The notes under the pieces were generated by a model that was given only the letters and a program-made list of their open reading frames with translations, had not been told where the DNA came from and searched no databases. A program made the position numbers and the translations under genes. 64,000 bases of DNA from Mesorhizobium sp. YIM 152430. Its GTDB lineage: Bacteria; Pseudomonadota; Alphaproteobacteria; Rhizobiales; Rhizobiaceae. Positions 5,589 to 27,202 of the stretch are shown here, piece by piece. The stretch lies in assembly GCF_029210365.1 (NCBI RefSeq), contig NZ_JARGES010000027.1, forward strand, positions 186,001 through 250,000, read 5' to 3'. Position 1 is the stretch's first letter, and each line of letters starts with the position of its first letter.

Positions 5589-6848
5589 TCAATGCCATTT
5601 GGGCGTGGCGCCCTGGCCTTTTTCGTCGATCAGGATGCCGCGGGCGAAGCGGTCGAGCGTGAAGGCGGCGTTGAGCGGGTGGGCTTCACCCCGCGCGATG
5701 GTGTGCGCGAAGCACCAGCCGGAGGCAGGCGTCGCCTTGAAGCCGCCATAGCACCAGCCGCAGTTCAGGAACATCCCGGGGAGGGGCCCCGGCGTGATGA
5801 TCGGCGAGCCGTCCATCGACATGTCCATGACGCCGCCCCATGAGCGCAGGAGCCGCACGCGCGCGAGGTTGGGGAACATGGCGAGAAGCTCGCTCATGAC
5901 TTCTTCCACCAGCGGCAGGTTTCCGCGCTGGGCGTAGGTGTTGTAGCCGTCGAGATCGCCGCCGAAGACGAGGCCGCCCTTGTCGGATTGCGAGACGTAG
6001 AGATGGCCGCCGCCGAAGGTGACGACCTGATTGATGAGGGGCTTGAGCGATTCGGAGACGAAGGCCTGGAGGACGTGGCTCTCGATCGGCAGATTGTCGA
6101 TGCCGGCGAGCTTCATGACGCGGCCGGTGGAGCCGGCGACGGCGACGGCGACCTTCTTGGCGCGGATTTCGCCGCGCGTGGTGGTGACGCCGACGACGCG
6201 CTCGCCCTCGCGCAGGAAGCCGGTGACCTCGCAATTCTCGAGGATGTCGACGCCGCGACGGTCGGCGCCGCGCGCATAGCCCCACGCGACGGCATCGTGG
6301 CGGGCGGTGCCGGCGCGCGGTTGCAGGAGCCCGCCGAGGACGGGGAAGCGCGCGGATGCCGACATGTCAAGGCCGGGCACCATGCGCGCGACTTCCTCGC
6401 GGCCGAGAAGGACGGCGTCGCCGCCTTCGTGGCGCATCGCGTTGCCGCGCCGCGCGTGCTCGTCCATCTGCGCCGGCGTGTGGGCGAGGTTGAGGACGCC
6501 GCGCTGCGAAAACATGACGTTGTAGTTGAGATCGTGGGAGAGGTTCTCCCACAGCTTCATCGAATGCTCGTAGAAGCGGATATTGTCCGGCAGGAGGTAG
6601 TTGGAGCGGACGATGGTGGTGTTGCGGCCGACATTGCCAGAGCCGAGATAGCCCTTTTCGAGCACCGCGACATTGGTGATGCCGTGCTCCTTGGCGAGGT
6701 AGTAGGCGGTCGACAGGCCGTGTCCGCCGCCGCCGATGACGATGACGTCATAGGAGGGGCGCGGGTCCGGCTTGCGCCAGGCCGGTTTCCAGTCCTCGTT
6801 TCCGGAAAGGGCGTTCCTCAGGAGGGAAAGGAACGAGTATTCGGCCAT
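5589..6848 (-). CDS. soxB: sarcosine oxidase beta subunit
   Basis: The 419-residue catalytic beta subunit, which carries non-covalent FAD and covalent FMN in characterised enzymes. The Rossmann motif YDVIVIGGGGHGLSTAYYLA starts at about residue 33. His184 in the TARHDAVAWG motif corresponds to the FMN-linked histidine (His173 in studied enzymes). The C-terminal NCGWCYGGFKATPASGWCFA block is strongly conserved. It is the first gene of the leftward soxBDAG operon and is divergent from the dimethylglycine-type flavoprotein at 7108 across 259 bases that must hold both promoters. Regulation by the nearby GlxA-type regulator is inferred, not shown. Confidence 0.96.
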   Translation of the reverse strand: MAEYSFLSLLRNALSGNEDWKPAWRKPDPRPSYDVIVIGGGGHGLSTAYYLAKEHGITNVAVLEKGYLGSGNVGRNTTIVRSNYLLPDNIRFYEHSMKLWENLSHDLNYNVMFSQRGVLNLAHTPAQMDEHARRGNAMRHEGGDAVLLGREEVARMVPGLDMSASARFPVLGGLLQPRAGTARHDAVAWGYARGADRRGVDILENCEVTGFLREGERVVGVTTTRGEIRAKKVAVAVAGSTGRVMKLAGIDNLPIESHVLQAFVSESLKPLINQVVTFGGGHLYVSQSDKGGLVFGGDLDGYNTYAQRGNLPLVEEVMSELLAMFPNLARVRLLRSWGGVMDMSMDGSPIITPGPLPGMFLNCGWCYGGFKATPASGWCFAHTIARGEAHPLNAAFTLDRFARGILIDEKGQGATPKWH

Positions 6849-19044: not shown

Positions 19045-19647
19045 ATGAGCGAAGCTCTCAAAGACCTCGCCGCCTATATAACGGAGCGGCTGGATGCGCA
19101 GGTTCAGGACGCCATCGTCGCCTTCGGCGATCTGACGGTCCATGTCGAGCCCGCCGACCTGATCGATGTGCTCGAATTCCTGAAGAACGACGTGCAGTGC
19201 CGTTTCGTGTCGATCATCGACATCTGTGGCGCCGACTATCCAGCGCGCGAGAAACGCTTCGACGTCGTCTACCACCTGCTCTCGCCCTATACGAACCAGC
19301 GTATCCGCCTGAAGGTGAGAACCGACGAGGACAATCCGATCCCCTCGGCAACGGAGGTCTTCCCCGGCGCCGACTGGTTCGAGCGCGAGACCTACGATCT
19401 CTACGGCGTGCTGTTCACCGGCCACCCGGACCTGCGCCGCATCCTGACCGACTACGGTTTCGAGGGACATCCCTTGAGGAAGGACTTCCCGCTGACCGGC
19501 TTCGTCGAGGTTCGTTACGACGACGAGGTCAAGCGCGTGGTCTACGAGCCCGTCGAACTGAAGCAGGAATTCCGCAACTTCGACTTCCTCTCGCCGTGGG
19601 AAGGCACTGATTACGTGCTGCCGGGCGATGAGAAGGCGAAGCAGTGA
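19045..19647 (+). CDS. nuoC: NADH-quinone oxidoreductase subunit C
   Basis: A 200-residue peripheral-arm subunit, the 30-kDa type, separate from nuoD as in mitochondria and other alphaproteobacteria. The motif [24 protein letters not shown] (split around residue 120) and the [20 protein letters not shown] segment are diagnostic; it contacts NuoD and scaffolds the Q module. Normally nuoD follows directly, but here a four-helix-bundle gene with flanking repeats intervenes. Confidence 0.96.
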
Positions 19648-19648
19648 T

Positions 19649-20101
19649 GCGGCAGGTCGGCACTCGGCAATCGGCAGTCGGATGACAGACGAGAACGAAA
19701 TTCGCTCGTATCGAGATCTTCGGGTATGGAATGAGGCAATGGAACTGGCGGCAGACTGCTACCGAATGACGACATCCTTTCCTCGTGATGAAATGTTTGG
19801 GATGACCGCTCAGATTCGCCGAGCAGGAGCGTCGATTCCGGCCAACATCGCGGAAGGTTATGGACGCGATAGTACGGGCAACTATGTGCAATTTCTGAAG
19901 ACTGCGCAGGGGTCGCTGAAGGAACTGGAAACACACGTCTTGCTGGCTGCCAAGGTTGGTCTGGTGCCTCAGGAAAGATCAGCGCCCTTGCTTGAGCGAG
20001 CCGAAACCGTAGGAAAAATGTTGCGCGGATTGATGCGTTCGATCCGTCCGACCGGAGGTCAGGCTTAATGCGATTGCCGATTGCCGACTGCCGACTGCCG
20101 A
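19649..20101. mobile_element. IVS-like cassette: four-helix-bundle gene bracketed by inverted repeats
   Basis: The gene at 19682-20068 is bracketed by about 30-base imperfect inverted repeats. The left arm (~19649-19681) is built from CGGCANTCGG-type units and the right arm (~20069-20101) from CCGATTGCCGACTGCCG-type units; their complements match with only a few differences. The unit separates nuoC from nuoD, which are normally adjacent. Four-helix-bundle genes of this family are the cargo of intervening sequences in 23S rRNA of some bacteria, so a transposable or recombining hairpin cassette is plausible. No transposase is present. The exact edges are inferred. Confidence 0.5.
19682..20068 (+). 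CDS. four-helix-bundle protein (IVS/S23-type)
   Basis: A 128-residue protein, [20 protein letters not shown] onward. The [19 protein letters not shown] helix, the [20 protein letters not shown] segment, the [14 protein letters not shown] loop and the C-terminal [13 protein letters not shown] helix are the signature of the four-helix-bundle family first found in 23S rRNA intervening sequences. The molecular function is unknown; structures are homopentameric with a basic surface. Base composition is less GC-rich than the nuo genes around it (31 of 60 G/C in 19741-19800). It is co-directional with nuo and would be co-transcribed. Confidence 0.88.
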
Positions 20102-20114
20102 AGAGCAAACGCCG

Positions 20115-21305
20115 ATGACCGAGCATTCCGTCCGCAACTTCAACATCAATTTCGGACCGCAGCATCCGGCGGCGCATGGCGTTCTGCGCCTCGTGCTGGA
20201 ACTCGACGGCGAGGTCGTGGATCGTGTCGATCCGCATATCGGGCTGCTTCATCGCGGCACCGAAAAGCTGATCGAACACAAGACCTATCTCCAGGCCGTG
20301 CCCTATTTCGACCGGCTCGACTATTGCGCGCCGATGAACCAGGAGCACGCCTTCGCGCTGGCGGTCGAGCGGCTGCTCGGCATCGAGGTTCCGAAGCGCG
20401 GCCAGATCATCCGCGTGCTTTATTCCGAGATCGGCCGGGTGATGTCGCACATCTTGAATGTGACGACGCAGGCGCTCGACGTCGGCGCGCTGACGCCGCC
20501 GCTCTGGGGGTTCGAGGAACGCGAGAAGCTGTGCGTTTTCTACGAGCGCGCCTCGGGCAGCCGGATGCACGCGGCCTATTTCCGCCCCGGCGGCGTCCAT
20601 CAGGACCTGCCGGACCAGCTTGTCGAGGATATCGGCAAATGGATCGATCCGTTCCTGAAGATGATGGACGATCTCGACGATCTTCTGACCGGCAACCGCA
20701 TCTTCAAGCAGCGCAACGTCGATATCGGCGTGGTTTCGCTCGAGGATGCCTGGGCCTGGGGCTTTTCGGGCGTCATGGTGCGCGGGTCTGGCGCGGCATG
20801 GGATCTGCGCAAGTCGCAGCCCTATGAATGCTACGCCGAAATGGATTTCGACGTGCCCATCGGCAAGAACGGCGACTGTTTCGACCGCTATCTGATCCGC
20901 ATGGAAGAGATGCGCCAGTCGGCGAAGATCATCCGCCAGTGCGTCGATCTTCTGCTGGGTGCCGAGAAGGTCGGTCCCGTTTCGTCGACGGACGGCAAGA
21001 TCGTGCCGCCGAAGCGGCAGGCGATGAAGCGTTCGATGGAAGCGCTGATCCACCACTTCAAGCTCTACACCGAAGGCTACCGCGTGCCGGCCGGCGAGGT
21101 CTATGCCGCCGTCGAGGCGCCGAAGGGCGAGTTCGGCGTCTATCTCGTCGCCGACGGCACCAACAAGCCCTATCGTTGCAAGCTGCGCGCGCCCGGTTTC
21201 GCGCATCTTCAGGCGATGGATTTCCTCTGCCGCGGCCATCTCCTGGCCGACGTCTCCGCCGTTCTCGGCTCCCTCGACATCGTGTTTGGTGAGGTCGACC
21301 GCTAA
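20115..21305 (+). CDS. nuoD: NADH-quinone oxidoreductase subunit D
   Basis: A 396-residue peripheral-arm subunit, the 49-kDa type, which forms the quinone-binding cavity with Nuo[21 protein letters not shown] near the N-terminus contains the conserved His that contacts quinone, and [12 protein letters not shown] and the C-terminal DIVFGEVDR end are family hallmarks. It relates to the large subunit of [NiFe] hydrogenases but lacks metal ligands. nuoE starts directly after the stop. Confidence 0.97.
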
Positions 21306-22370
21306 ATGTCCGTACGCCGTCTCGCAGAACCAGAATTCCAGCCCGCCAGCTTCGCTTTCGCAGGCGAGAATGTGGCCTGGGCCGAACAGACCATCCGGAA
21401 ATACCCCGCCGGGCGTGAGCAGTCGGCGGTCATTCCGCTTTTGATGCGCGCGCAGGAGCAGGATGGATGGGTGACGCGGGCGGCGATCGAGCATGTCGCG
21501 CAAATGCTCGACATGCCGCTGATCCGCGTGCTCGAAGTCGCGACCTTCTACACGCAGTTTCAGTTGAAGCCGGTCGGCACCAAGGCGCACATTCAGGTCT
21601 GCGGCACGACGCCGTGCATGTTGCGCGGCTCCGAGGCGCTGATGGATGTGTGCCGCTCGAAGATCCATCACGACCAGTTCCATCTGAACGAGACCGGCAC
21701 GCTGTCCTGGGAAGAGGTCGAATGTCAGGGTGCGTGCGTCAACGCGCCGATGGTCATGATCTTCAAGGATGCCTATGAGGATCTGACGCCCGAGCGTCTG
21801 GCCGAGATCATCGACGAGTTCGACGCGGGTAGGGGCGATGCCGTTCCGACGGGGCCGCAGATCGACCGGGTCTTTTCCGCGCCCGAAAGCGGCCTGACCT
21901 CGCTGACCGACGAGAAGGCAGTGCTGAAGGCGAACCGCAAGGCGGAGCCGAAAAAGGCTGGCGGCGACCAGCCGGAAGTCGCCCCGTCCCAGGCCGCCAA
22001 GCCGAAGACCGCCGCGCCGGAGACCGATCCGTCGATCAAGTCGCCATCGCCGGTCAAGGCAGAACCGGCCGCCGAGAAGGCTGCGAGCGTCGAGGCGCCG
22101 AAAGAGGACGAGGCCGCCGCCGATCTGGCGGAGCCCTCCGTCGAGGGCGAGGTGACGGCACGCGAGCATCCCCACAAGAAGGACGGGACGCCCGCCGACT
22201 ATCGCGCGCCGGAAGACATGGAGGGCGGGCCGATCGGCCCCGCCGGCCGGCGCCGGAAGTCCGAAAAGGCGGCCGAGCGGGGCAAGCCCTCGCCCGAAGG
22301 CACGGCCGAGGTGAAGAAGCCCGCGCGCGCGAAGAAGCCGAAAACCGACGATGAAGGCGGAGCGAAGTGA
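21306..22370 (+). CDS. nuoE: NADH-quinone oxidoreductase subunit E with long C-terminal extension
   Basis: A 354-residue protein whose first ~165 residues are the thioredoxin-like 24-kDa subunit carrying [2Fe-2S] cluster N1a. The ligands lie in [10 protein letters not shown] and [11 protein letters not shown]. The normal subunit ends near residue 170-200. The remaining ~150 residues are low complexity, rich in Ala, Glu, Lys and Pro, and probably disordered (for example [20 protein letters not shown]). Such tails occur in Rhizobiales NuoE. The stop overlaps nuoF as TGATG. Confidence 0.95.
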
Positions 22371-23677
22371 TGCTTCAGGACAAGGACCGCATCTTCACCA
22401 ACATCTATGGCCGCTTCGACCAGTCGCTGAAAGGCGCGATGGCGCGCGGCCATTGGGACGGCACGGCCGGGCTCATCGCCAAGGGGCGTGACTGGATCGT
22501 CCAGGAGATGAAGGATTCGGGCCTGCGCGGACGTGGCGGCGCCGGTTTCCCGACCGGATTGAAATGGTCGTTCATGCCGAAGGCGGCATCGGACGAGCGT
22601 CCGCACTATCTCGTCGTCAATGCCGACGAATCCGAACCGGGCACCTGCAAGGACCGCGAAATCCTGCGCCACGATCCGCACACGCTGGTCGAGGGCTGCC
22701 TGATCGCCGGTTTCGCGATGGGCGCGCATACGGCCTATATCTATGTGCGCGGCGAGTTCATTCGCGAGCGCGAGGCGCTTCAGCGCGCCATCGACGAAGC
22801 CTATGATGCCGGGTTGCTGGGCAAGAACAACAAGAACGGCTGGGATTTCGACGTTTTCGTTCATCACGGCGCGGGCGCCTATATTTGCGGCGAGGAAACG
22901 GCGCTGCTGGAAAGCCTCGAAGGCAAGAAGGGCCAGCCGCGCCTGAAGCCGCCATTCCCGGCCAATGTCGGCCTCTATGGCTGCCCGACGACGGTCAACA
23001 ATGTCGAATCGATCGCGGTCGCGCCGACGATCCTGCGCCGTGGCGCGGGCTGGTTCGCGGGCTTCGGCCGTCCGAACAATGTCGGCACCAAGCTTTTCTG
23101 CGTCTCCGGCCACGTCAACACGCCCTGCACGGTCGAAGAAGAGATGTCGATCCCGTTCCGCGAATTGATCGACCGCCATTGCGGCGGCATTCGCGGCGGC
23201 TGGGACAATCTGCTGGCTGTGATTCCAGGCGGCTCGTCGGTCCCGCTGGTGCCGGCCGAGCAGATCATCGACACGCCGATGGATTTCGATTCCCTGCGCG
23301 ACCTGAAGTCGGGCCTCGGCACGGCGGCGGTCATCGTGATGGACAAGTCGACCGACATCGTGAAGGCGATCGCGCGGCTCTCCTATTTCTACAAGCATGA
23401 AAGCTGCGGCCAGTGTACGCCGTGCCGCGAGGGCACCGGCTGGATGTGGCGCGTGATGGAGCGTCTGGTGCGCGGCGAGGCGCAGAAGCGCGAGATCGAC
23501 ATGCTGCTCGACGTGACCAAGCAGGTGGAAGGCCACACGATCTGCGCGCTGGGCGACGCGGCCGCGTGGCCGATCCAGGGTCTGATCCGGCACTTCCGAC
23601 CCGAGATCGAGCGCCGTATCGACGAATTCACGCGCAACAGCCACCGCGCCGCGCCGGCGCTGGTCGCTGCGGAGTAG
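22370..23677 (+). CDS. nuoF: NADH-quinone oxidoreductase subunit F
   Basis: A 435-residue NADH-oxidising subunit that holds FMN and [4Fe-4S] cluster N3. [18 protein letters not shown] binds FMN, and [18 protein letters not shown] lies in the NADH/FMN site. [17 protein letters not shown] with the later [13 protein letters not shown] supplies the four cluster cysteines. ATG 22370 overlaps the nuoE stop; an in-frame GTG three bases earlier is less likely. A foreign-looking gene follows nine bases after the stop. Confidence 0.97.
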
Positions 23678-23686
23678 GAGGACGAA

Positions 23687-24346
23687 ATGAACGTCTTGCT
23701 CACTAAAACCGCCACAGTATTAATACTGTTAAGCACCATGAACAATGTATCTGCCCAAGATATTGATCAAGGTACAATTGGATTGGATGCATTAATCCGA
23801 GCCGTTGTTAATGATGTGACATCTGCTGCAAATGCGCCTTCGAATCTGATAGGCGGAGGGGGGCAAGCCGTATTTGATCTTGGCGAAACGCATCTCGAAC
23901 TTCAATTCACGCTTAGCCGGGATGCGGGTGGTAAGCTGGAAGCGAATTTTCTGGGTTTTGGTGGGGCAGGGGGCGTCAACATTAGTGACCAGAAAACTCA
24001 GAAGATCAGCATAAAGCTGATTCCATCGACGTCGGGTACGGAAGGTATTCAGTTTTCCTCCTTTGATCCTGCCAAACCAACGGTGCTGTTGGACTCTGCT
24101 AGTTTCGCTCGGCTGAACGAGCTAGGTGCTGCAAGTCCAATCCGCTTGGGAGTACCAACTGCCATCAATGCGGAAGCTTTGGGTATCGCAAACGAGGGCG
24201 TGGTGCTGAATGCAGATACCTACCGAGCTTGGCTCGACGTTATAGAACAAGCAAATCCCCAAGCGGACCTGGCTGAATTCGCAACCACGCCGCTTCAGGT
24301 AGAGTTGCCAAGCCAAACTCTTGATGTATCACCACGCCAGCAATAG
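23687..24346 (+). CDS. secreted protein with Trypco2-like region, inserted in the nuo operon
   Basis: A 219-residue protein with a Sec signal peptide (MNVLLTKTATVLILLSTMNN, cleavage probably after VSA at ~residue 23). Residues ~28-112 read as an N-terminal helix (IGLDALIRAVVNDV), a strand pair AVFDLGETHLELQFTLSRDA, a Gly-rich loop and a final strand QKISIKLIPS. That order resembles the Trypco2 domain of bacterial conflict systems (helix, 'F-LG-VELEL-V-R-A', 'T-KV-L-L-P'). The assignment is by eye. The C-terminal ~105 residues match nothing I recognise. Codons are AT-rich (23 of 60 G/C in 23761-23820), unlike the nuo genes, so recent acquisition is likely. A GGAGG ribosome site precedes it. 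Confidence 0.6.
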   Translation: MNVLLTKTATVLILLSTMNNVSAQDIDQGTIGLDALIRAVVNDVTSAANAPSNLIGGGGQAVFDLGETHLELQFTLSRDAGGKLEANFLGFGGAGGVNISDQKTQKISIKLIPSTSGTEGIQFSSFDPAKPTVLLDSASFARLNELGAASPIRLGVPTAINAEALGIANEGVVLNADTYRAWLDVIEQANPQADLAEFATTPLQVELPSQTLDVSPRQQ

Positions 24347-24380
24347 CGCCGACCGTATACCTTTTAGGTTTGACAGGACA

Positions 24381-25058
24381 ATGGCCGAAAAGAACCCGTC
24401 GGAGGACTTCGCCAAGTTGGGCCAATCGGTTGCGACCGATCCGTTCGCCGGCATGGCGAACCTGATGGCGCATCCCGTTGCCGGCATGGCGGCGGCATCC
24501 GCCATCGGCTTCGGCATGGCCAGCCACGCCTTCGGCCTCTGGATGGGGGCGATGGCCGGTGCGACGGAGGTTTCCCGGCGCATGTTGGCGGAGACCGAAG
24601 CGGAAGAAAAGACCGCGCCGGGACCGCGCCTGAAGCTGGTTTCGGTCAATGCGGCCGAGGAGGTGGCAAGCCTGGCGCGAACCGTCGAGGCCGATGTCGA
24701 GAAGATTGCGCTCGACGCGACGGTCGTATCGGCAAAGGCGGCCGAGGCACTGCTCGACGATGTGAAGAAGGGGACCGAAAGCGCGATGCGCGCGCCGGCG
24801 CGGAAGGCAAAGCCTGCTCGGCCGGACAATCTGAAGGCGATTTCGGGCGTCGGCCCGAAGCTGGAGCAGGTGCTGAACGGGTTCGGCATCTGGACCTATG
24901 GCCAGGTCGCGGCGCTGGTGGATGCGGAGATCGCGTGGCTGGACGAGCAATTGGGTTTTGGCGGCCGAATCGACCGTGACGGTTGGGTGGAGCAAGCGAA
25001 GAGCCTTGCATCCGGGCCCAACTCCGGTTCAAAGGGTGCGGGCCGCAAGCGGTCCTGA
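24381..25058 (+). CDS. complex I operon-associated helix-hairpin-helix protein
   Basis: A 225-residue protein found at this place in many Rhizobiales nuo operons, often labelled 'NADH-ubiquinone dehydrogenase'. The N-terminal part has a Gly/Ala/Met-rich segment ([20 protein letters not shown]) that could sit in or on the membrane and resembles phasin-type regions. The C-terminal ~70 residues form a helix-hairpin-helix-like unit, [20 protein letters not shown] onward, ending [14 protein letters not shown]. It is not one of the fourteen core subunits; an assembly or accessory role in complex I is inferred from conservation of position. ATG 24381 follows AGGA closely. Confidence 0.75.
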
Positions 25059-25120
25059 AATGTCCCGGCCGACAAGGACGGAACGGATGGGCGGCTGATG
25101 CCGCCGGGGTTAGAGGCAAG

Positions 25121-27202
25121 ATGGCGAAGCTCAAGGTAGACGGCAAAGAGATCGAGGTTCCCGATCACTACACGCTGCTTCAGGCGGCGGAGGAAGCGGG
25201 CGCGGAAGTGCCGCGCTTCTGTTTCCACGAACGCCTGTCGATCGCCGGCAATTGCCGCATGTGCCTCGTCGAGGTGAAGGGTGGACCGCCCAAGCCGGCT
25301 GCCTCCTGCGCCATGGGCGTGCGCGACCTTCGCCCCGGCCCGAACGGCGAGGCGCCCGAAATCTTCACCAACACGCCGATGGTGCGCAAGGCGCGCGAAG
25401 GCGTGATGGAATTCCTGCTCATCAACCACCCGCTCGACTGCCCGATCTGCGACCAGGGCGGCGAATGCGATTTGCAGGATCAGGCGATGGCCTTCGGCGT
25501 CGACGCATCGCGCTATCACGAGAACAAGCGCGCGGTCGAAGACAAGTATATCGGTCCGCTGGTCAAGACGATCATGACGCGCTGCATCCACTGCACGCGC
25601 TGCGTGAGGTTCACGACGGAAGTGGCTGGAATCTCGGAGCTCGGCCTGATCGGCCGCGGCGAGGACGCCGAGATCACAACCTATCTCGAAAACGCCATGA
25701 CGTCCGAATTGCAGGGCAACGTCATCGACCTTTGCCCGGTCGGCGCGCTGACCTCCAGACCCTATGCCTTCCAGGCCCGTCCGTGGGAACTCTCGAAGAC
25801 CGAATCGATCGATGTGATGGACGCGGTCGGCTCGGCCATCCGCGTCGACACGCGCGGCCGCGAGGTCATGCGGATCATGCCGCGCGTCAACGAGCAGGTG
25901 AACGAGGAGTGGATCTCCGACAAGACCCGCTTCATCTGGGACGGCCTCAGGACGCAGCGCCTCGACCGCCCCTATGTGCGCCGCAACGGCAAGCTGACGG
26001 CGGCAAGCTGGGGCGAAGCCTTCGGCGCCATCAAGGATGCCGTGGCCAAGACCTCGGGCGACCGGATCGGCGCGATTGCGGGCGACCTTGCGACCGTCGA
26101 GGAAATGTATGCGCTGAAGGGCCTGATGACGGCGCTCGGCTCGGCCCATATCGACTGCCGCCAGGATGGCGCCAAGCTCGATCCGGCCAATGGACGCGCG
26201 AGCTACGTCTTCAACCCGACCATCGAGGGCATCGAGGATGCCGATGCGCTTTTGATCATCGGCGCCAATCCGCGCTTCGAGGCTTCCGTTCTCAATGCCC
26301 GCATCCGCAAGCGCTGGCGCATGGGCAACTTCCCGATCGGCGTCGTCGGCGACATCGGCGATTTGCGCTACGATGCCGAGCGCATCGGCGGCGGCGCAGA
26401 GACGCTGCGCGAACTGGTCGCCGGCAAGCTCGACTTCGCCAAGGTGCTGAAAGACGCGGCCCGTCCGATGGTCATCGTCGGCCAGGGCGCGCTCGCGCGC
26501 GCCGACGGCGCGGCGGTGCTGGCGCTGGCCGCGGAACTGGCGGCATCCGTCGGCGCGGCAAGCGCCGAGTGGAACGGTTTTGCCGTGCTTCACAATGCGG
26601 CCGCGCGCGTCGGCGGTCTCGATCTCGGCTTCGTGCCGGGCGAGGGCGGCAAGGATCTGGCCTCCATGATGGGCGCGCTCGACGTGGCGTTCCTGCTCGG
26701 AGCGGACGAGTTCGACATGGCGGGCCTCGGCTCGGCCTTCACCGTCTATATCGGCAGCCATGGCGACGCCGGCGCGCACCGCGCCGACGTGATCCTGCCG
26801 GGCGCGACCTATACGGAAAAGTCGGGCACCTACGTCAACACGGAAGGCCGGGTTCAGATGGCGAACCGCGCCGGCTTCGCGCCGGGCGACGCGCGCGAGG
26901 ACTGGGCGATCCTGCGCGCGCTGTCGCACGTGCTCGGTCACAAGCTGCCTTACGATTCGCTGCCGCAGCTTCGCGCCGCGCTTTATGCGGAGTATCCGCA
27001 TTTCGCCGCCATCGACGAGATCGCGGCGGGCGACGTGGCGGACATTGCGGCGTTGAAGAGCGGCAAGGCCGATTTCGACAAGGCGGCTTTCGTGTCGCCG
27101 ATCAAGGATTTCTACCTGACCAACCCGATCGCGCGTGCCTCCGCCGTGATGGCCGAGTGCTCCGCGCTCGCGCGGGACGGTTTCAGGCAGGCAGCCGAAT
27201 AG
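25121..27202 (+). CDS. nuoG: NADH-quinone oxidoreductase subunit G
   Basis: The 693-residue 75-kDa-type subunit carrying three iron-sulfur clusters of the N module. The N-terminal Fer2 domain has [39 protein letters not shown] and [12 protein letters not shown] supply the [4Fe-4S] ligands. The C-terminal two thirds is a degenerate molybdopterin oxidoreductase domain without cofactor. ATG 25121 is selected by AGAGG just upstream and by alignment of the first strand ([16 protein letters not shown]). Length matches alphaproteobacterial NuoG. Confidence 0.96.

Follow-up and report, generated by a model that had tools for sequence, protein, structure and literature searches.

The window, by which we mean the whole stretch of 64,000 nucleotides analysed here, carries a gene for a Trypco2-domain protein of 219 amino acids inside the complex I (nuo) operon. 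The gene occupies positions 23687-24346 of the forward strand, as do its own parts and its neighbours nuoF, nuoG and the gene between them, and its open reading frame runs over 219 codons from an ATG start to a TAG stop, in agreement with the sequence-only reading of this DNA. The GGAGG ribosome site pointed out there is present as AGGAGG at 23676-23681, where it extends across the stop codon of nuoF. The ATG lies 9 bp past this stop codon and five bases past the AGGAGG. From the 9-bp gap, the gene would be co-transcribed with the nuo genes and expressed from the nuo promoter. Directly upstream, nuoF (22367-23677) is 98-99% identical to its counterpart in three congeners and 96% in the fourth. 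The gene had been placed between nuoF and nuoG; this location is right, but the interval also holds a gene for a helix-hairpin-helix (HHH) protein at 24381-25058, ahead of nuoG (25121-27202, from the ORF list and alignment). The HHH Pfam matches of this protein stayed under the cut-off in hmmscan.

The Trypco2 domain spans residues 31-113 (23777-24025). In hmmscan the protein matched the Pfam Trypco2 model (PF19631) over the full profile (1-78 of 78) with an E-value of 3e-9 and 37.4 bits against a cut-off of 24.2, and this was its sole Pfam family at E-values up to 1. The same region scored 38.5 bits against a second profile, for which 13 rows of relatives were used. The assignment of residues 28-112 or so to Trypco2, originally made by eye, is therefore borne out by the profile. 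We know of no tested function of Trypco2. A search of the whole genome at E-values up to 1 gave a single Trypco2 match, the window gene itself.

The C-terminal region, residues 114-219 (24026-24343), contains no recognised domain, and residues 115-219 had no Pfam match up to an E-value of 10. We considered this tail as a second Trypco2 copy and ruled it out, since it scored -2.1 bits against the Trypco2 profile. Three matches to the tail with E-values of 0.002-0.004 among 327 genomes of the order were read by eye and taken as chance; two lay in alcohol-dehydrogenase-like proteins of related genomes and one in an unrelated protein. The tail had been described as unlike anything recognisable, and neither Pfam nor the order genomes yielded a credible relative. 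The real function of the protein may reside in this unrelated half.

The comparison with four same-genus genomes (alignment to L046-L049, ORF starts, length and G+C) delimits an inserted segment of 703 bp at 23678-24380. The distance from the nuoF stop to the next ATG is 11-12 bp in all four congeners, compared with 703 bp here. The left flank of the insertion aligns closely in all four, and on the right flank the HHH protein is 88, 86, 78 and 56% identical. The two junctions share only the 5-bp strings AGGAC and CGAAA, which may be chance, and the window contains no tRNA genes.

The composition of the Trypco2 gene is foreign as well. Its G+C content is 49.8% and its GC3 is 0.46, whereas the GC3 of the 49 other window ORFs kept by our script (at least 150 aa, a few of them probably not genes) ranges from 0.63 to 0.89. 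Among 660-bp stretches taken in 10-base steps along the window, the one with the least G+C overlaps the gene, and none clear of it fell under 56.4%. The earlier count of 23 G or C among the 60 bases at 23761-23820, given as a sign of AT-rich codons, is exact. Since a four-helix-bundle gene between nuoC and nuoD also has a low GC3 (0.54, in a shorter gene), the Trypco2 gene is not the sole compositional oddity in the operon. Taken together, the empty site in four of four congeners and the composition support the view, already put forward from the sequence, that the gene was acquired. The acquisition is a recent one, and the insertion behind nuoF is precise.

We looked for relatives of the window protein. 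None was found in the genome-contig collection or among viral contigs (IMG/VR), in a search that reaches close relatives only, and none among plasmids or phages. PDB sequences, NCBIfam, PHROGs and PADLOC gave no match. Among 101 genomes (its own and relatives) the only real match was in its own genome; two others gave matches with an E-value of about 0.005, one of them with a stop. Trypco2 matches exceeding the cut-off came from 6 of the 397 order-level genomes searched, 4 of 385 at class level and 12 of 398 at phylum level; these samples overlap, and each includes the window genome. Some weaker matches lay near or below the cut-off as proteins.

We compared the nuo loci of 44 genomes, namely the gene's own, the 39 of 40 sampled family genomes in which nuoF was matched and four of the genus. 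The Trypco2 gene was present in the window genome only, at one of 44 nuo loci and, by tblastn, at one of 34 nuoF loci. Gaps longer than 200 bp were absent from nuoA-B, B-C, G-H, J-K, K-L, L-M and M-N and occurred in 5 of 43 genomes each for H-I and I-J and, of 44, in 22 for C-D, 17 for D-E, 18 for E-F and 31 for F-G (G029, G034 and G043 lack some of these values, and the L-M and M-N values of G038, whose contig ends there, are meaningless). We classed the content of gaps of at least 200 bp by the three longest forward ORFs in each. The C-D gap exceeded 400 bp in 21 of 44 genomes. There, nine genomes have a gene resembling the window's four-helix-bundle gene (19628-20068), G043 has a similar one with internal stops (by eye), and eleven have a protein that by eye looks like the GFA family, of which the one we tested matched PF04828 with an E-value of 4.9e-14. 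The D-E gap holds an FkbM-type methyltransferase in the congener G004 (E-value 4e-6), in G008 a protein of similar appearance, in G007, G017, G018 and G033 small proteins with a leader, and in G031 a Uma2 protein (tested). In F-G we found a DUF3291 protein in G008 and a pentapeptide-repeat protein in G032, both tested.

Two further genes of this stretch deserve a remark of their own. The window's four-helix-bundle gene (23S rRNA-intervening-sequence protein, PF05635) has a counterpart of 52% identity at the same place in one congener and is absent from the other three. The HHH protein is common in the family, where 26 of 44 genomes have it between nuoF and nuoG, with variable length and sequence; in some genomes an HHH-related segment stands in or after nuoE instead. 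More generally, varied single accessory genes are seen in nuoC-nuoG (19645-25120 of the window and loci L087-L129), while most other nuo gaps are tight.

Many relatives carry other accessory genes in this stretch of the operon, so it looks like a site where arriving genes are tolerated, and the Trypco2 gene is likely expressed by hitchhiking on the nuo operon. The gene might instead have been recruited to complex I, for instance to serve its assembly or quality control while being produced along with it. Its position and ribosome site do place it in the nuo messenger. However, it is absent from all four congeners and from every other nuo locus compared, unrelated genes sit in the same stretch elsewhere, and NuoE, NuoF and NuoG are cytoplasmic while the window protein is probably exported. 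We therefore hold recruitment to be very improbable. Beyond the coupling to complex I expression that had been proposed, a functional tie is not supported; with varied accessory genes in nuoC-nuoG and Trypco2 in the window genome only, a tie specific to complex I is unlikely.

Residues 1-24 of the protein (23687-23758) read as a probable signal peptide. The segments MNVLLTK, TATVLILLSTM and NNVSA are followed by Q, with a predicted cleavage between VSA and QD, and the leader contains the most hydrophobic 10-mer of the protein. When the protein was shuffled, 1228 of 10000 shuffles had an N-terminus at least as hydrophobic; the hydropathy is not exceptional, but a signal peptide, which we read as a Sec leader, is likely. 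Other Trypco2 proteins have comparable N-termini by eye. They are leader-like in the proteins of L063, L064, L065 and a plasmid of Tunicatimonas, and lipobox-like in those of L066 and L067. With the window protein this makes seven probably exported Trypco2 proteins, five of which (L064, L065, L066, L067 and the Tunicatimonas protein) have two Trypco2 stretches each. The N-terminus of the window protein and the clearer leaders of these relatives suggest that it is exported.

A canonical cytoplasmic Trypco2 with an N-terminus that is hydrophobic by chance would also fit the shuffles. In its favour, nine strong class and phylum matches (L050, L051 and L053-L059) lack a leader by eye, and single-domain scores tie the window protein no more to exported than to leaderless forms. 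It reached 11.9 bits at best, with L064; the Tunicatimonas protein gave 9.8, the leaderless proteins of L069 and Vibrio reached 9.8 and 9.0, and the exported ones of L063, L067 and L066 gave 2.1, 2.1 and -1.2. We had regarded the window protein as closest to the exported tandem type but gave this up: the whole-protein E-value of 8.5e-7 with L064 sums two domains, and the single-domain lead is small, which is why we word our explanation without a common exported branch. Against a cytoplasmic location, 30 residues precede the domain and a cleavage-like site lies at residue 24, much as in the leader-bearing relatives, whereas in most leaderless Trypco2 proteins the domain starts no more than about ten residues in (L058 is unclear). 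We consider the cytoplasmic alternative distinctly unlikely.

Products with Trypco1 or Trypco2 are described, in the available part of PMC7159879, as frequent and mutually exclusive gene neighbours of the trypsin-like peptidases of VMAP systems. Such a neighbourhood suggests that Trypco2 could bind a protease, and we found it for probably exported forms too. One pair is that of L064, from the same order as the window: only a few bases behind the Trypco2 gene begins a gene whose 512-residue product matches Trypsin_2 (E-value 3.8e-10). At L065 the following gene encodes a 416-residue protein (Trypsin_2, E-value 1.1e-20); the genome belongs to the window's class, but this assignment is weak, the contig being 8.7 kb long and the genome 79% complete. 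The third pair, found via the L064 protein (E-value 2e-14), is on NZ_CP120686.1, a 9.5-kb plasmid of Tunicatimonas pelagia (Bacteroidota), where a serine protease gene (Trypsin_2, E-value 4.2e-13) follows the Trypco2 gene. Although their hosts are distant, the L064 and plasmid tandem Trypco2 proteins are clearly related (E-value 5e-24). By eye, all three partner proteases have the His, Asp and Ser motifs and a leader-like N-terminus, which the plasmid protease has only from an earlier start. There, an in-frame ATG at 6510, 108 bp before the annotated 6618, adds a signal-peptide-like N-terminus (L077 6510-8084), and the annotated start is probably too late. Trypsin_2 genes also adjoin Trypco2 at the leaderless loci L068 and L069; the L069 match is barely above the cut-off, and the L068 protease, from the start we chose, has no leader by hydropathy.

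A probably exported protease thus adjoins three of the seven probably exported Trypco2 genes, and since such proteins occur elsewhere, export is not unique to the window gene. With the five partner proteases as tblastn queries, no protease was found beside the Trypco2 gene in the window, L063, L066 or L067; such a search misses some distant proteases (that of L064 did not find that of L065), and the absence at L063, L066 and L067 is weak. Wider searches with these pairs were equally blank, whether of genome contigs with the L064 Trypco2 or of plasmids with the L065 Trypco2 and the L065 and L064 proteases. A viral-contig scan with P0002 found nothing, and among plasmids P0002 matched its own record only.

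The 64-kb window has no trypsin-like gene by tblastn with the five partner proteases at E-values up to 0.1. Elsewhere in the genome there are three Trypsin_2 matches, all outside the window and at the same three places in a Trypsin search, compared with 3, 3, 3 and 4 in the four congeners. At the thresholds used, the genome therefore has no extra trypsin-like gene relative to its congeners. The open frames of the three resident matches are 525-596 residues long, which we take to fit HtrA/DegP proteins. Since no dedicated partner protease lies nearby, any protease that the window protein targets would be either a resident trypsin-like one of HtrA/DegP size or a foreign one.

The missing partner also fits a leftover of an exported Trypco2-protease pair, in which the protease was lost or never arrived, the second copy was replaced by an unrelated tail and little function would remain. 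The window gene has one Trypco2 copy and no protease, whereas two stretches are present in five of the seven probably exported proteins and an adjoining protease in three. Such a leftover is harder to reconcile with a frame that is intact over 219 codons behind a good ribosome site, and other intact orphans exist, in a prophage (L063) and between integron-like repeats (L079). We judge this explanation to be unlikely.

Trypco2 genes do occur without a trypsin-like neighbour. The leader-bearing Trypco2 gene of L063 (9418-9876) comes shortly before the gene for a terminase small subunit (PHROG E-value 1.9e-32); genes for the terminase large subunit and a head-tail adaptor come next, which identifies a prophage. 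Searches with this Trypco2 protein matched two plasmid records. In Vibrio sp. HDW18 (NZ_CP049914.1) a leaderless Trypco2 gene (L079 4989-5429) lies between copies of a 63-nt repeat, 14 of them at spacings of 385-1492 bases. The repeats resemble integron attC sites of Vibrio, and their array an integron cassette array; Rfam showed nothing in L079 or L001. On a plasmid of Nostoc sp. C057 the Trypco2 gene stands between genes for an alpha/beta hydrolase and a CHAT-domain protein.

Alternatively, the gene could be an accessory gene of phage or defence type, whose exported Trypco2 product acts at the envelope against other phages and which spreads as single-gene cargo. Several observations point this way: the place of the L063 gene beside the terminase genes, the Tunicatimonas pair, which comes one gene after a gene annotated as super-infection exclusion protein B, and the partner proteases, all three of which hit RT-Protease_XI and LmuA in PADLOC, in the protease portion of these models, with E-values down to 2e-18. 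The family is also known from VMAP conflict systems, according to the part of PMC7159879 that was available. However, the window protein has no relative among phages, plasmids or IMG/VR contigs and the L063 protein none among phages or IMG/VR contigs, PADLOC had no match for the window protein or the four other Trypco2 proteins tried, and the ORF list and Pfam gave no mobile gene among the nuo neighbours. On balance, a role of this kind seems improbable.

Our preferred explanation, held tentatively and at somewhat less than an even chance, is that the gene is an acquired, probably exported orphan Trypco2 behind nuoF, whose product binds a trypsin-fold protease in the cell envelope. It draws on the leader, the neighbourhood and the insertion. 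In this view the species gained the gene by an exact insertion behind nuoF, its product would be translated from the nuo messenger and secreted by Sec, and the Trypco2 domain would bind the trypsin-fold (chymotrypsin-like) domain of a protease in the envelope, where it might act as an adaptor or as a brake. The resident HtrA/DegP-size proteases or a foreign protease would be the targets. A bolder extension, which we regard as speculative and rather doubtful, is that Trypco2 and a trypsin-like protease form a conflict module of the envelope that passes from one distant bacterium to another as two genes together, with exported orphans such as the window gene and the prophage copy acting in trans on the modules of other cells or elements or on resident HtrA-type proteases.

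Probably exported Trypco2 proteins, with a protease that is likewise probably exported next to three of them, would locate the module to the cell envelope. These leader-bearing pairs, three so far, are the most interesting extension of the finding and would offer small two-gene systems in which the link between Trypco2 and its protease could be tested directly. The repeated uptake of single accessory genes by nuoC-nuoG in this family bears on how promoterless cargo may gain steady expression.

Among known systems, the closest is the Trypco2 (trypsin-co-occurring domain 2, PF19631) of the VMAP systems, as far as these are set out in the available part of PMC7159879, and the likeness consists in the full-length profile match above the cut-off. 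The window protein differs from it in its probable signal peptide, its tail of about 105 residues, the lack of an adjacent protease and its place in a respiratory operon. VMAP, the MoxR ATPase and vWA, the neighbours in the VMAP ternary system, are not among its immediate neighbours, which are nuo genes and the HHH gene. Within the open literature, the available text of PMC7159879 and PMC10907252 makes no mention of exported Trypco2 forms. With the tandem pairs of L064, L065 and NZ_CP120686.1 the window gene shares a putative N-terminal export signal (by eye) followed by Trypco2; those have two copies and a protease, against a single copy and no protease here, and the sequence similarity is weak. 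The orphans of L063 and Vibrio sp. HDW18 resemble it in having a single Trypco2 with no protease seen beside it and, for L063, a probable leader. They differ in setting, since the former lies in a prophage and the latter is leaderless and flanked by attC-like repeats. The window gene is thus an acquired, probably exported orphan form of an already known domain, with a novel tail and in a respiratory operon.
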